Below are positions 5,213-63,670 of a stretch of 64,000 nucleotides of DNA, one piece after another (the first letter of the stretch is position 1; every line of letters starts with the position of its first letter). The notes under the pieces are model-generated. The model saw only the letters and a program-made list of their open reading frames with translations, ran no database searches and had not been told where the DNA came from. Origin of the DNA: Sipunculus nudus (taxonomy: Eukaryota; Annelida; Sipuncula; Golfingiida; Sipunculidae); contig CM049321.1 of the NCBI GenBank assembly GCA_026874595.1, positions 4,085,479-4,149,478 on the forward strand. Reading direction: 5' to 3'. Both the position numbers and the translations under genes were made by a program.

Positions 5213-5389
5213 AACTAGCTTATTACCCGTTCATTATTTTGCACTTGGATACCAGTTTAGTGTTACATGCATAAACGAGTGGCCAGTGGCCACAGAGGAG
5301 TTCCGTGACAAAGGTGAAGTGGGACCACCCTCAATTATAACACAGATTATCTATTTTCTGATAATTTGATAGACAGAGGAAGTTTTAAT

Positions 5390-6223
5390 ATGGAGAGCTA
5401 TGCCTCGCAGATACTTGACTACACGCTACGCTCTGCACTTTGGCCTGTCATCTTCCTGGCGAATGGGCTGACTGTGGCTGCCATTTTGAAATTTCCATCG
5501 CTCAGAAAACAGACCAATCTACCTTTTGCAGCCATTGCTTGTGTGGACATATCAGTTGGTCTGCTCTCCATGACGCACACTATCCTTGAACAAGTGGCGA
5601 CGAGGAATAAGGAACTTGAGATGATAACAGAGTGCCTTTGTCTTCTGACATACCAGACCTCTTTTGTTGCTCACGTTGCCTCTGGTGTAGAGAGGTATTT
5701 TTACTTTATACATCCACTAAGATACAAGAAACTGTTGTCACGAGCCTTTTACTTGCTTGTGTGTATTTTAATACCTATCTGTGTTATACAGAGTGTTCTG
5801 AAGATATATACCCAAAACCCAACTGATATGCTTGTCTTATTAGCGACAGAATACTGGGTATTTGTTATTGTCGTTTCTGTATTATATTGTTATGTCGCAA
5901 AGGGTATTCACAAGCAAACGAGCCAGTTAAAAGTCCTGACTTTGACTGCGCGGTGTTCTTCCGGTATCTCCAGATCGGACATCCGGGCTTTTAAAACCTC
6001 AGCCCTATTATGGCTGACACTGGCAGTTGCTTGGTTACCGCCGATTGTTCTTATGGTTACCATGTACAATCACTCTATAGAACAGTCTGTTTTGAATTTC
6101 GCTGAACCAATTGTGTACAACTGGTGCCTATCCAAATCAGCATTAAACTATTTTATTTATGCTTGGGAAAACAAGGTATTTTACGATGCATACTGCCGTC
6201 TGCTCACAGAAAAATGTTTTTAA
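5390..6223 (+). CDS. Intronless class A (rhodopsin-like) GPCR, MECA-like orphan
   Basis: Predicted plasma-membrane seven-helix receptor that would signal through heterotrimeric G proteins; ligand unknown. The frame is open from 5318 after a TGA at 5315, but the first ATG is at 5390 (A at -3, G at +4), giving 277 residues. Landmarks: N25 in TM1 (ANGLTVAAIL), D53 in TM2, ERY at 101-103 with IHPLRY after it, AWLPP at 214-218 in TM6 (W215, P217), and NYFIY at 253-257 in TM7, where Tyr replaces the usual Pro of NPxxY. Helix 8 follows (NKVFYDAY). There is no Cys at the 3.25 position, no Cys in the second extracellular loop, no Pro in TM5 and no Trp in TM4. Loss of the disulfide and of the TM5 Pro is known for the melanocortin/EDG/cannabinoid/adenosine group, so I infer a relative of that group. 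All seven helices fit in one exon, and no stop or frameshift interrupts it. An upstream spliced exon cannot be excluded. Confidence 0.88.
   Translation: MESYASQILDYTLRSALWPVIFLANGLTVAAILKFPSLRKQTNLPFAAIACVDISVGLLSMTHTILEQVATRNKELEMITECLCLLTYQTSFVAHVASGVERYFYFIHPLRYKKLLSRAFYLLVCILIPICVIQSVLKIYTQNPTDMLVLLATEYWVFVIVVSVLYCYVAKGIHKQTSQLKVLTLTARCSSGISRSDIRAFKTSALLWLTLAVAWLPPIVLMVTMYNHSIEQSVLNFAEPIVYNWCLSKSALNYFIYAWENKVFYDAYCRLLTEKCF

Positions 6224-21998: not shown

Positions 21999-22057
<59 letters not shown>
21999..22057. repeat. (AT)n microsatellite next to the ribozyme
   Basis: Perfect alternating TA just 3' (minus-strand sense) of the hammerhead at 22079-22127. The second hammerhead, at 26175-26223, is also flanked by AT tracts. 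Confidence 0.95.
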
Positions 22058-22078: not shown

Positions 22079-22127
22079 GTCACTACCCGCAGGTTTCGCG
22101 CTTACTTCATGGCACTCATTAGGTGAC
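22079..22127 (-). ncRNA. Degenerate hammerhead ribozyme of a Penelope-like element
   Basis: On the minus strand: stem I GUCAC, core CUAAUGA, stem II GUGC/GCGC around a 10-base loop, GAAA, stem III CC/GG with a UGCG loop, then UA and stem I GUGAC. It matches the intact ribozyme at 26175-26223 almost base for base, but core position G5 is A (CUAAUGA for CUGAUGA), which is expected to abolish self-cleavage. It lies about 140 bp downstream of the Penelope-type endonuclease remnant on the same strand, the place where hammerheads are known to sit in the terminal repeats of such elements. Confidence 0.85.
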
Positions 22128-22249
22128 TGAGGTGTGTTGGTTTGTGTTTGCTCATGTTTGGGCGCGTGTGTGAGATTATTTACGGTTGGCTGCTTTTCAC
22201 GGTACGGTGCCTGCAAGTGTTAAGGAATTCACTTCGTTTATGAAGGAGT

Positions 22250-23106
22250 GGCGTTCTTGTGTAAGTCATGATTTTAGCTTCTCCTGTTCGCATAGGGTAC
22301 ATCTGTTAGCCATCGCTGTCATGACTGGCTTAGCGATAATGGACCATGTAATATTGTGCGAGGTGCCTTGTCGTTTGAGTTTCCAAATATATTTTGATAG
22401 TTCTGTTTCTTTCTCATTTTGTTCGTATTTAAAGGATTTCTTATGGTTTCCATATATAGGGCTTTTAAAAGTGCTTCCTGTATATCCGATGTATGAGACA
22501 GTCCCGTTGTTGGTTGTTATATCGGTCTTGTAAACAACACTGGCTATCAAGCAGTTTCCGTTCAGTGAACATTCCCCTTGATACCTGCAGTTGCAAGCTC
22601 GCTTGGGTGGGGGGTTCAATGGTTGTTGCAGAACTTTTCGGTTGTGGATTCTGACAATCCTGCTCATGTTTTCGAGGTAGCTGTAGCTGACTTTCATTGT
22701 ATTTCTGTTGAAGAGTTTGTGAAGAAGGCTGCGGGATGGGAAATATTTGTCTATCAGGTTCAGGAACATTTTGCTGACATTTGTTTTTACACTCTTACAG
22801 AAAGGTGGGTTAAACCATCAGGGGCGTCAATATAGGGGGAGGGGTATATATACCCCCCCACTTTTTGGCAAATGTAATAATCCCCCCCCCCAACTTTTCA
22901 GAGAATAATATTATAATATTGCAAACGAAATATTTTAATAAATAGAATTAAAGACTTTGGATCTATTTACTAAAAAATGTTATATCTAAACCTTGTTTAG
23001 AATTAACAAAATAACTTATTCTCTAAATCATTATAATTATTTGAAATTTGATTAAGTATATATATATAAATATAGTTGTATATGCCACTCACTGACGCTG
23101 AAAAAA

Positions 23107-23177
<71 letters not shown>

Positions 23178-23400
23178 AGATCATACCTCCACCCTGTAAG
23201 AAAAATTGACGCCACTGTAAACCATATAATATTCATTCTCCGCTTGTTCCTATGTTTGTTTTGGGGCGTTTTGTTTTAGCTGATTCTTTCGTCGTATCCA
23301 GAGTTTTTCAACGCATCGATATAGATGTAGGCGGTTGAGTTGAATGAATCTTCGTTGTGGGAGAGTTGTTGTATATGCGTTTGCCGCATTTTATGAACTT
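22250..23400 (-). pseudogene. Penelope-like retroelement, C-terminal RT tail and GIY-YIG endonuclease
   Basis: The minus-strand frame 22769-22266 gives 167 residues, and the same frame is open further upstream to the MITE. It reads 'NPPFCKSVKTNV', 'DKYFP', 'LHKLFNRNTMKVSYS', a CxC-x5-C-x5-C cluster at residues 59-73, the GIY-YIG-type core 'VVYKTD...SYIGYTGSTFK' at 78-102, and 'ETELSKYIWKLK' at 121-132 with the catalytic-type Glu. The Arg usually found after 'TFK' is missing (TFKSPIYGNH). A TGA follows KLKS, and readable sequence continues beyond it (ERHSFINEVNSL). A hAT MITE (22819-23217) splits the gene. Beyond the MITE the frame resumes at 23226 and runs to about 23390 ('ALKNSGYDERIS', then a stop). 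It is a dead 5'-truncated copy; most of the RT is missing. Confidence 0.88.
22819..23217. mobile_element. Non-autonomous hAT element (MITE), 399 bp, with 8-bp TSD
   Basis: The ends are CAGGGGCGTCAAT and ATTGACGCCACTG, inverted with one mismatch. Both flanks carry the identical octamer TAAACCAT (22811-22818 and 23218-23225), the 8-bp duplication typical of hAT transposition. Inside are short C runs near 22850-22895, AT-rich sequence and a long (AT)n at 23109-23175. There is no transposase. Insertion is into the Penelope remnant, so it is younger than that copy. A second copy is at 59312-59677. Confidence 0.93.
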
Positions 23401-23465
23401 ATTGCAGCTTTACTTTTATGTATCGGGCACTTTGATCCTGGAATGGCAACTAAACCCTTTCAGTA

Positions 23466-23511
<46 letters not shown>

Positions 23512-26050: not shown

Positions 26051-26174
26051 TAAGATATTTAGTTTGACAATAATGATTAGAACATTTCTGTTATTGTCAC
26101 ATTTTGTAATCTGCAAAGCAGGAGACATATTGTACGTAATAAGATTCAAATAAGATTATATATATATATATAGA

Positions 26175-26223
26175 GTTACCTGATGAGTGCCACGCAGTGC
26201 GCACGAAACCTGCGGGTAGTGAC
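26175..26223 (+). ncRNA. Hammerhead ribozyme, type I, core intact (Penelope-type)
   Basis: Self-cleaving RNA motif. Stem I: GUUAC (26175-26179) pairs with GUGAC (26219-26223), one G-U. Core CUGAUGA is at 26180-26186. Stem II is GUGC (26187-26190) with GCAC (26201-26204), extendable by CAC/GUG inside. GAAA is at 26205-26208. Stem III is CC/GG with a UGCG loop (26209-26216), and UA follows at 26217-26218, so cleavage is predicted after A26218. All catalytic core bases are present. A two-base-pair stem III is characteristic of the type I hammerheads described in Penelope-like elements. It is flanked by AT tracts (about 26157-26171 and 26254-26271) and no endonuclease remnant is visible nearby, so it is probably an isolated terminal-repeat fragment. 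Confidence 0.9.
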
Positions 26224-26289
26224 ATTTATGCATTGATGCATTTTTATAAACTTATATATATATATATATATGCACAAAACTTTCTGTCT

Positions 26290-32047: not shown

Positions 32048-32575
32048 CAGATTTCTATGGAGCCCCTAAAGTGACATACGTGATATTTTTTTCTGGGTTA
32101 TTATCGCGTTTCCTCGCGATCTTTTCGCGTTCCCTCGCGATCTTTTCGCGTTCCCTCGCGATCTTTTCGCGTTCCCTCGCGATAATATCGCGTTCCCTCG
32201 CGATCTTTTCGCGTTCCCTCGCGATCTTTTCGCGTTCCCTCGCGATAATATCGCGTTCCCTCGCGATCTTTTCGCGTTCCCTCGCGATAATATCGCGTTC
32301 CCTCGCGATCTTTTCGCGTTCCCTCGCGATCTTTTCGCGTTCCCTCGCGATCTTTTTCGCGTTCCCTCGCGATCTTTTCGCGTTCCCTCGCGATCTGTTC
32401 GGCTAGGCTGGTTCCCTGCTCCTCTATATCTGGCATACATGCAAATAAATGGACGCGGGAACCAGTACAACAGTTTACTTTACCTCGTTCCTTGTGTCTT
32501 TAACACCACAACGCTCCAATAAGATATACGCTCGATGTCAGGTCAACACAACGATGCTTGTATAAGATTAGATTA
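32048..32575. repeat. Left arm of large inverted repeat, with 21-bp TCGCGA minisatellite
   Basis: Order from the left: unique outer sequence ('TCTATGGAGCCCCTAAAGTG', 'CATACGTGATATTTTTTTCT'), then about 14 units of 21 bp (GCGTTCCCTCGCGAT + CTTTTC or AATATC) at 32104-32400, then inner sequence ('CTGGTTCCCTGCTCC', 'GTCTTTAACACCAC', 'CTCGATGTCAGGT'). The whole series recurs in reverse complement at 35370-36052. Long open frames on both strands come from the 21-bp period being a multiple of three. Confidence 0.95.
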
Positions 32576-35369: not shown

Positions 35370-36052
35370 GTCTAATCTCTCTTATTCAAGTATCGCTTTG
35401 TTAACCTGACATCGAGTGTATATCTAAGAGGTGGAGCATGGTGGTGTTAAAGACACAGAACGAGACACAGATAACTGTTGTTCTGGTTCCTGCGTCCACT
35501 TTTCTGTATGCTAGATGTTGCATGCTAGATATAGGGGAGCAGGGAACCAGCCTAGTGATCTTTTGTAAGATCGCGAGGGAACGCGAAAAGATCGCGAGGG
35601 AACGCTAAAAAGATCGCGAGGGAACGCGCAAAGATTGCGAGGGAACGCGAAAAGATCGCGAGGGACGCGAAATTATCGCGAGGGAACGCGAAAAGATCGC
35701 GAGGGAACGCGAAAAGATCGCGAGGGAACGCGAAAAGATCGCGAGGGACCGCGAAATTATCGCGAGGGAACGCGAAAAGGTCGCCAGGGAACGCGAAATT
35801 ATCGCGAGGGAACGCGAAAAGATCGCGAGGGAACGCGAAATTATCGCGAGGGAACGCGAAAAGATCGCGAGGGAACGCGAAATTATCGCGAGGGAACGCG
35901 AAAAGATCGCGAGGGAACGCGAATAGAACGCGAGGGAACGCGAGGGAACGCGAAATTATCGCGAGGGAACGCGAAAAGATCGCGAGGGAACGCGATATTT
36001 ACCCAGAAAAAAAATATCACGTATGTCACTTTAGGGGCTCCATAGATTTCTA
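35370..36052. repeat. Right arm of large inverted repeat, 21-bp TCGCGA minisatellite
   Basis: Reverse-complement counterpart of 32048-32575: inner sequence ('ACCTGACATCGAGTG', 'GTGGTGTTAAAGAC', 'GGAGCAGGGAACCAG'), then about 20 units of GCGAGGGAACGCGAA + AAGATC or ATTATC at about 35572-35996, then outer sequence ('AAATATCACGTATGTCACTT', 'AGGGGCTCCATAGA'). It has more units than the left arm, plus a few irregular ones. Open frames reading 'REGTRKD' repeats are by-products. Confidence 0.95.
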
Positions 36053-61732: not shown

Positions 61733-62750
61733 AATTTGTGCGTATTGGCTTACCAAAAGAAAGCTCTGTCTTCATAAAATGAGATACCCGAGATCGTTAT
61801 ATTTATAATTTGTGCGTATTGGCTTACCAAAAAAAAAGCTGTCTTAATAAAATGAGATACCCGAGATCGTTATATTTATAATTTGTGCGTATTGGCTTAA
61901 CACTCTGTCTTAATAAAATGAGATACCCGAGATCGTTATATTTATAATTTATAGCGTATTGGCTTACCAAAAAACACTCTGTCTTAATAAAATGAGATAC
62001 CCGAGATCGTTATACTTATAATTTGTGCGTATTGGCTTACCAAAAAAACGCTCTGTCTTAATAAAATGAGATACCCGAGATCGTTATATTTATAATTTGT
62101 GCGTATTGGCTTATCAAAAAACGCTCTGTCTTAATAAAATGAGATACCCGATATCGTTATATTTATAATTTGTGCGTATTGGCCTACCAAAAAAAACCGC
62201 TCTGTCTTAATAAAATGAGATACCCGAGATCGTTATATTTATAATTTGTGCGTATTGGCTTACAAAAAAAAAACAAAAAAAAAAACGCTCTGTCTTAATA
62301 AAATGAGATACCCGAGATCGTTATACTTATAATTTGTGCGTATTGGCTTACCAAAAAAACGCTCTGTCTTAATAAAACGAGATACCCGAGATCGTTATAT
62401 TTATAATTTGTGCGTATTGGCTTACCAAAAAACGCTCTGTCTTAATAAAATGAGATACCCGAGATCGTTATATTTATAATTTGTGCGTATTGGCCTACCA
62501 AAAAAAAAACGCTCTGTCTTAATAAAATGAGATACCCGATATCGTTATATTTATAATTTGTGCGTATTGGCCTACCAAAAAAAAACCGCTCTGTCTTAAT
62601 AAAATGAGATACCCGAGATCGTTATATTTATAATTTGTGCGTATTGGCTTATCAAAAAACGCTCTGTCTTAATAAAATGAGATACCCGATATCGTTATAT
62701 TTATAATTTGTGTGTATTGGCCTACCAAAAAAAACCGCTCTTTCTTAATA
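61733..62750. repeat. ~73-bp satellite, 14 units
   Basis: Each unit runs AATTTGTGCGTATTGGCTTA, a variable A run, CGCTCTGTCTTAATAAAATG, then AGATACCCGAGATCGTTATA and TTTAT. Units are very similar; they differ mainly in A-run length (6 to about 20) and in GAGATCG versus GATATCG. The GATATCG units recur in a two-step order near 62150, 62538 and 62689, hinting at block duplication. Confidence 0.95.
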
Positions 62751-63670
62751 ACTTTCTTAATATCTTTCGCATTATAATTGTAATAAAATATTTAGATCTT
62801 TTGTATAGTGAGATCGCAAAAATTGAATTCAAGTGAAAAACTTTAAATGTGAAGATCGCGAAATTTAATCCCCGCGAATATCAGCTTTATCTATTTAGGT
62901 TGCTGACATCCAGGGTGTGTTTTCTTTGTCAGACTGTTCAAAGAGTTCACGTCGTGGACGGAAATAAGTACAAACCTCGTTGAGGAAGTCCTGCCTCCGC
63001 CATTGTCATCTATTGCAGCTCAAACTACGAGACATTGAGTGGCAGCCTAAAAGTATTACTACCGGCCGGCTTCTTCAGCCAAGTAATAAACCACGGCCTC
63101 CATTGTAACGGGACGACAGTGCTCCCGGTTTTATCCACTACCTGAAGCGACTTATCAGACTGTTTTGATGGTTTCATTTGACTAAATCCCGGTAAATTCC
63201 AAATCTAAGTATATATCCACCAGGGGTGTCCATTTACGGAGTCACCTGACCTCATCACTTCCCCCCTCCCTACGATTTAATATTTTCGTGCCTGGTTATG
63301 CCTTATCAAGAAGTTTATAGTAGTCTATTTAAGCTTCTTGATCTTACAGAGACCAGTGCGGCAGCCATAGAAAAAGAAAGAGGAATGAAACTGACAGTGG
63401 GTTTGGTATTATTGTAACACTACAATGCCCTTTATGTCAAAAGCCCGGGTGACGAAATTATTTCAAGTTAATTTATGGAGCATGTGCATATACGCAGAGA
63501 GGCATCCATCCAAACTGAAACAGTATGGTTTGGTAACATTGTCCTGGCTTATATCTTTACCCCTGTTTATCTGTTCGTCCTTTCGTCTCCTTTTTTTGCC
63601 TAAATTTACACACACAATGTTACAAGTTACTGACGATTTGATTCAATCGAATCAGAAAAATGCTTTGTTT
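62751..63670. other. Intergenic; candidate regulatory segment
   Basis: At 62940-63170 a complex repeat-free stretch has two CCATTGT (SOX-type) words. At 62815-62880 'GAAGATCGCGAAATTTAATC' resembles a common low-copy repeat, also hinted at near 39950-40010. No gene is supported. Confidence 0.35.

Follow-up and report, generated by a model that had tools for sequence, protein, structure and literature searches.

Sequence features of the window

The window is a 64,000-nucleotide stretch of the Sipunculus nudus genome (GCA_026874595.1, contig CM049321.1, positions 4,085,479 to 4,149,478, forward strand). It contains a hammerhead ribozyme (HHR) motif between two (TA)n tracts and a remnant of a Penelope-like element (PLE). 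L numbers denote individual sequence stretches used for comparison. The features of the solo motif are as follows, with the evidence in brackets.

26157..26172, unstranded: (TA)8 tract of the target microsatellite, to the left of the solo (tandem-repeat reading of the window)
26173..26173, plus strand: extra G between (TA)8 and the first element base (sequence; L003 has GGGC at the same place)
26174..26251, plus strand: solo Penelope leader fragment, 78 nt, consisting of the HHR and 28 nt to the short junction site, AAAC and then TTATATA (own-genome copies match end to end)
26175..26223, plus strand: type I hammerhead motif, core intact (sequence reading, strict descriptor, homologous family)
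26253..26270, unstranded: (TA)9 tract of the target microsatellite, to the right of the solo (tandem-repeat reading of the window)

The features of the Penelope remnant are as follows.

21999..22054, unstranded: (TA)28 at the remnant 3' end (tandem-repeat reading)
22079..22127, minus strand: diverged HHR of the remnant, core mutated to CTAATGA (sequence, alignment, copy comparison)
22128..22265, minus strand: Penelope 3' untranslated/pLTR segment, 138 nt, from the endonuclease ORF to the HHR (sequence, own-genome copies)
22266..22817, minus strand: ORF of 183 aa, RT end and GIY-YIG-type endonuclease remnant (46-47% identical to an L001 ORF, E 3e-51)
22819..23217, unstranded: hAT-like MITE nested in the remnant (8-bp TSD ATGGTTTA at 22811-22818 and 23218-23225)
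23226..23385, minus strand: upstream RT part of the same remnant (sequence, three-frame reading, by eye)
23386..23466, plus strand: truncated leader arm in inverted orientation on the 5' side of the remnant, with its end at the long junction site (by eye against L007)
23471..23494, unstranded: (TA)12 at the remnant 5' end (tandem-repeat reading)

The solo motif was confirmed as a core-intact hammerhead with three stems, composed of GTTAC (26175-26179), CTGATGA (26180-26186), GTGC (26187-26190), GCAC (26201-26204), GAAA (26205-26208), CC-TGCG-GG (26209-26216), TA (26217-26218), and GTGAC (26219-26223). Stem III has the two pairs originally described plus the usual A-U. The CUGANGA ... GAAA ... 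UH core, three helices, and opening at stem I that characterize type I hammerheads are all present in 26175-26223, and cleavage is expected after A26218.

Three other features were observed in the window. An ORF of 301 aa resembling a rhodopsin-family GPCR lies stop-free at 5318-6223 (Pfam 7tm_1, E 2e-10). A 21-bp minisatellite, TCGCGTTCCCTCGCGATCTTT and its complement, forms arrays at 32104-32401 and 35567-35999 in opposite orientation with several frames open. The tandem array of ~73-77-bp units at 61733-62751 is apparently a satellite.

Penelope remnant and its bivalve-associated relative

The original prediction reported no endonuclease remnant beside the motif; this stands for the solo insertion itself, but 3.4-4 kb upstream the minus strand carries an endonuclease remnant that has an HHR as well. 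The HHR segments of the solo and the remnant align without gaps over 71 bp, 61 of them identical (E 2e-19), starting within a base of the left (TA)n of the solo and ending just before the right one. The two HHRs are separate insertions. The 690 nt upstream of the remnant HHR match the own-genome copy L006 at 83%. The nested hAT-like MITE has 12-bp terminal repeats (CAGTGGCGTCAA/CAGGGGCGTCAA, 11 bases matching) and contains (TA)34.

The relative L001 is a 6.7-kb contig (NZ_MPRK01000087.1, 1-6731) filed under a gill symbiont of Solemya, a bivalve. An HHR-like motif lies between its two PLE ORFs, and a 1253-aa retrotransposon-like ORF was recognized by eye. As it carries these Penelope and retrotransposon-like ORFs, L001 probably represents host DNA that contaminated a bacterial assembly. 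The ORF start of the own-genome PLE resembles that of L001 by eye. The ORFs are called Penelope-like because of the similarity between the Sipunculus copies and L001, their arrangement, and presumed PLE motifs.

Pfam and NCBIfam were silent on the window ORF (22266-22817), Pfam likewise left the L001 endonuclease unnamed, and the sister copy L042 matched Pfam GIY-YIG at E 0.063, below the cut-off. The predicted structure of the endonuclease was poor (pLDDT 38.8), and the PDB sequence searches returned one meaningless match (E 0.54) and otherwise none. No matches came from scans of viral contigs with the endonuclease protein, an HHR stretch, a schistosome-like HHR, or a PLE motif.

Significance of the hammerhead motif

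A strict descriptor requiring the core and three stems (at least three pairs in stem II, two in stem III, and four in stem I) matched a single time in the window, and 200 first-order-Markov shuffles of the window together gave one match, both strands being searched. The bare core pattern without stems was not unusual, with two matches in the window and 2.7 expected. The Rfam covariance check proposed for the motif gave no matches at the gathering score in the whole window; the best hammerhead model was HH9, which scored 12.4 and 12.2 bits (E 7.6 and 1.2) where its cut-off is 52. The HHR-like motif of L001 was likewise unreported by Rfam. The original prediction would have let an absent covariance score count as refutation, a rule that, applied with Rfam, would have wrongly discarded the motif; Rfam can overlook PLE-type hammerhead motifs.

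The folding energy of the 49 nt was no better than that of shuffled sequences (z -0.48). Covariation across the HHR helices was measured on 24 of the 29 distinct first-batch cores, five being omitted as shifted, inserted, or broken in stem I; it amounted to one double-sided change, a level reached in 81 of 500 shuffles.

Genomic family and element anatomy

The genome-wide motif search suggested at the outset retrieved at least 128 copies of the 41-nt core within three mismatches in 1.43 Gb (67 on the plus and 61 on the minus strand), and the reversed pattern, used as a control, retrieved none. A first batch of copies came from an own-genome homology search with a TA-flanked query, which gave at least 51 matches, the best 40 of 286 candidates being scored; a second batch was located by the HHR core pattern. 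In all, 85 stretches including the window, with 118 HHR arms, were examined.

In L043 and L041, one HHR precedes and one follows the broken-frame pieces of a Penelope ORF, with a spacing of 2363 and 2368 nt between the two HHRs. When the leader of these copies is numbered from the A before stem I, its junction sites fall near +84 and +148 and its ATG near +208. Both direct tandem and inverted pLTR arrangements are present in the family. The homology, the own-genome copies, and the HHRs flanking the Penelope ORF therefore identify the solo as a PLE pLTR/leader fragment in a (TA)n microsatellite. The two origins originally offered thus fared differently: an isolated Penelope terminal repeat is favoured by the remnant homology, own-genome copies, flanking HHRs, and copy number of at least 128, and a separate ribozyme-bearing retroelement is disfavoured, as the whole 78-nt unit occurs inside PLE copies. 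The motif is of a known kind and is one more PLE hammerhead.

The core was identical in 23 of the 56 complete first-batch copies. The solo in the window differs from this commonest core by one base, which changes C-G to U-G in stem I, and the solo L003 has U-A there; these changes are only suggestive of a helix, as covariation in the family was not above that of the shuffles. A more diverged HHR-like segment with a CTGAGGA core and a similar tail was observed at L012:772-849, hinting at older related Penelope families in the S. nudus genome. The tail-only repeat of L080/L081, which begins near the cleavage site, resembles a local tandem duplication.

Target and junction sites

The original description of a solo copy flanked by AT tracts was borne out: the copy is apparently single, and the tracts are the (TA)n insertion target. 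A script found (TA)n adjoining 90 of 114 arms, the near-duplicates L024 and L040 being excluded, and it missed some (e.g., L077 and L094). The first-batch query was itself TA-flanked; in the second batch, found by the core, (TA)n adjoined 37 of 59 arms. Arms without (TA)n include L051, L065, L066, L082, L083, and L095. Tracts of (TA)8 or longer make up about 1% of the window when summed by hand.

The copies end at two junction sites, a short one (AAACTTATA) and a long one (CTGTAATA), both of which are TA-repeat-like. Among 25 head-to-head pairs, 20 were long-short by count, L052 was long-short by eye, one was long-long (L059), two were long-other, one was other-other, and none was short-short; L007 and L074 were entered by eye, and the two HHRs of the window were not counted as a pair. 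With near-duplicates removed, 18 of 23 pairs were long-short. The copy L039 ends at the long site yet has 1.2 kb of PLE upstream. A single rule for all inverted arms and 3' ends proved too strong, given L039, the long-long pair, and several ends that are not (TA)n. A 23-bp direct repeat flanking the motif was considered as a target-site duplication and rejected, as in sister copies AAACTTATA forms the terminus of the element itself.

5' ends of the copies

Positions are given relative to the A before stem I. In 15 of 81 independent stretches, an arm ended within -8 to +3, and elsewhere four ends fell within +4 to +14 and four within +15 to +44. The test left out the window remnant, L080/L081 (walk artefacts), L024/L040 (near-duplicates), and one diverged L012 arm, and the value for L028 is an artefact of a 1-nt insertion. 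For 53 stretches and ends spread uniformly across 309 nt, the clustering had a P of 1e-9, with bin limits set after the data were seen. Ends inside the HHR were under-sampled because the second batch was located by the HHR core, and the result is therefore a sharp drop of 5' ends upstream of +3 rather than a proven peak. Seven partner arms end inside the HHR (L021, L030, L050, L055, L062, L067, and L074).

Six apparent solos have 5' ends at 0 (window), +1 (L003), -7 (L038), +3 (L084), -3 (L089), and -4 (L090), where solo means that no partner occurred in the stretch read, about 400 nt on each side for L084, L089, and L090. In L038 and L090, the 5' side lacks (TA)n. Some of the clustered ends belong to head-to-head pairs with the near-palindromic junction CAGGTSACCTG, for which self-priming could be an alternative source. 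The strict pattern TATATAG-(0-8)-AGTYACCTGATGAGTGCC had two matches in the genome, the window and L003, and a single exact pattern for copies that begin at the cleavage base of the HHR, no more than 6 nt from TATATA, had none.

In both the window and L003, an extra G precedes the A before stem I; that at 26173 could be target-derived, untemplated, or cap-templated. The sequence around A26174, TCAGTC (TCAGTY), resembles a common animal initiator, and none was seen in L001. The end positions, the lack of matches to the cleavage-base pattern, the extra G, and the initiator-like motif are consistent with a cDNA that reached the 5' terminus of an RNA left uncut at the HHR.

Predicted folding

The best predicted fold of the solo monomer was not the hammerhead (-13.8 versus -11.8 kcal/mol for the hammerhead), and for the commonest PLE core the two were nearly equal (-14.3 versus -14.0 kcal/mol). 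The best predicted dimer of all four sequences tested had stem II within each strand, and stem I and a ten-pair stem III between strands. The near-palindromic stem III would suit such dimers. The predicted dimers would fit the dimer cleavage claimed for PLE hammerheads in the title of a paper cited within PMC7761336. A 136-nt segment including both TA tracts folded stably (z -3.2); the tracts pair with each other in this fold, and it was rejected as a hammerhead.

Origin of the solo copy

We consider the solo to be a 5' leader copy of a (TA)n-preferring PLE, with reverse transcription begun inside the leader and run to the 5' end of the RNA (probability of about 0.55). What was observed directly is the homology, the number of copies, where they end, and the (TA)n beside them. 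The leader of the family has the hammerhead first, then the two TA-like junction sites, at about +84 (AAACTTATA) and +148 (CTGTAATA), and then the ORF. The PLE enzyme would cut (TA)n DNA and prime reverse transcription at either junction site. On a tandem or read-through RNA template, the cDNA would enter the upstream ORF and yield a long copy; on an RNA beginning at the leader, it would run off after 78 nt and leave an HHR-only copy such as 26174-26251. The HHR would be expected to cut tandem transcripts after the equivalent of A26218, perhaps as a dimer, and a solo copy need have no present activity. Internal initiation is taken by analogy from PAc, a published PLE. A26174 is the putative start of the RNA, judged by the 5' limits of the copies and the initiator-like TCAGTY.

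Alternatively, a longer PLE or head-to-head pair might have been reduced to the solo, through deletion or recombination at a palindromic junction or between (TA)n tracts, which we regard as possible though on balance unlikely. This origin accords with the (TA)n on both sides and with the frequency of head-to-head pairs joined at or inside the HHR, and solo pLTRs without TSDs in Adineta vaga are so explained in the available text of PMC3846280; it leaves unexplained the 5' edges of six apparent solos within a few bases of one nucleotide.

That the pLTR is a relic whose HHR is non-catalytic and serves as an RNA structure bound by the PLE enzyme appears improbable. The accessible part of PMC11167929 describes a PAc HHR that cut only with protein and HHR mutants that left insertion unchanged, and in our family there was no significant covariation and the monomer folded no better than shuffles. 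Against this, the commonest core, shared by 23 of 56 complete first-batch copies, retains the catalytic bases, and the predicted dimers form hammerhead helices.

A free-standing retrozyme, a non-autonomous circular-RNA retroelement, is very improbable: a type I HHR in an animal genome would agree with it, and a stem III of comparable shortness is described for some animal retrozymes (PMC7229834, as far as its text was available), but retrozymes are ~170-400 nt and usually tandem, and here a single 78-nt unit is found wholly inside PLE copies. Chance resemblance, for which one could cite the silence of Rfam and a rate of one strict match per 200 shuffled windows that still amounts to many in 1.4 Gb, has a negligible probability and is ruled out by homology rather than by the Rfam score, namely at least 128 near-identical copies, the PLE linkage, and a constant place in the element.

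Comparison with known elements

The leader-copy reading was compared with the following systems as described in the portions of the cited papers that were available. PAc (Poseidon of the green anole, Anolis carolinensis) starts RT internally at two adjacent sites, prefers and cuts AT-rich DNA, and inserts mainly unprocessed RNA (PMC11167929). The Sipunculus family resembles it in the HHR near the ORF start, the two adjacent internal sites proposed for RT start, the AT-rich target, and the tandem copies; unlike those of PAc, its sites lie upstream of the ORF (+84 and +148, with the ORF at +208), are TA-target-like, and occur mostly in long/short pairs, and apparent leader-only copies exist.

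Pen2a and its relatives in Adineta vaga (PMC3846280) are like the Sipunculus family in the inverted 5' pLTR, the optional tail on one inverted pLTR, the palindromic junctions, the solo pLTRs, and the leaning to simple AT-rich targets. The solo pLTRs without TSDs in A. vaga were ascribed to recombination or deletion, whereas leader-only copying is proposed for the Sipunculus solo.

PLEs bear minimal HHRs (review PMC6155905), and minimal HHRs are mostly dispersed, some in PLE pLTRs, with a role called a mystery (review PMC7761336). Those of PLE pLTRs (Cervera & de la Pena 2014; Luense et al. 2017, as cited in the two reviews) share with ours the core, the place in the pLTR, the very short stem III, and the many copies; for the Sipunculus family, by contrast, we have mapped leader anatomy and copy ends, and the target is chiefly (TA)n. 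Animal retrozymes also have type I HHRs, some with a two-pair stem III and tetraloop (PMC7229834), but the Sipunculus unit departs from them in size (~170-400 bp) and tandem arrangement, being a 78-nt single unit in PLE copies.

A wider and tentative reading, which we hold with less than even confidence, is that the dispersed minimal hammerheads of animals are largely leader-only retrocopies. The PLE transcript would start just before stem I, making the HHR the 5' terminus of the mRNA; copying would begin at TA-like leader sites matched to the (TA)n target and run off the RNA 5' end, sometimes with the cap copied as an extra G; and two cDNAs, one per site, would join head to head to form inverted pLTRs. 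Among the titles and abstract openings surveyed in the related open-access literature, leader-only retrocopies were not proposed.

The S. nudus genome holds a family with recurring ends, characterized by two leader junction sites, a 5' boundary where the HHR begins, and insertion into (TA)n. The leader model would offer a testable account of both solo hammerheads and head-to-head pLTRs.
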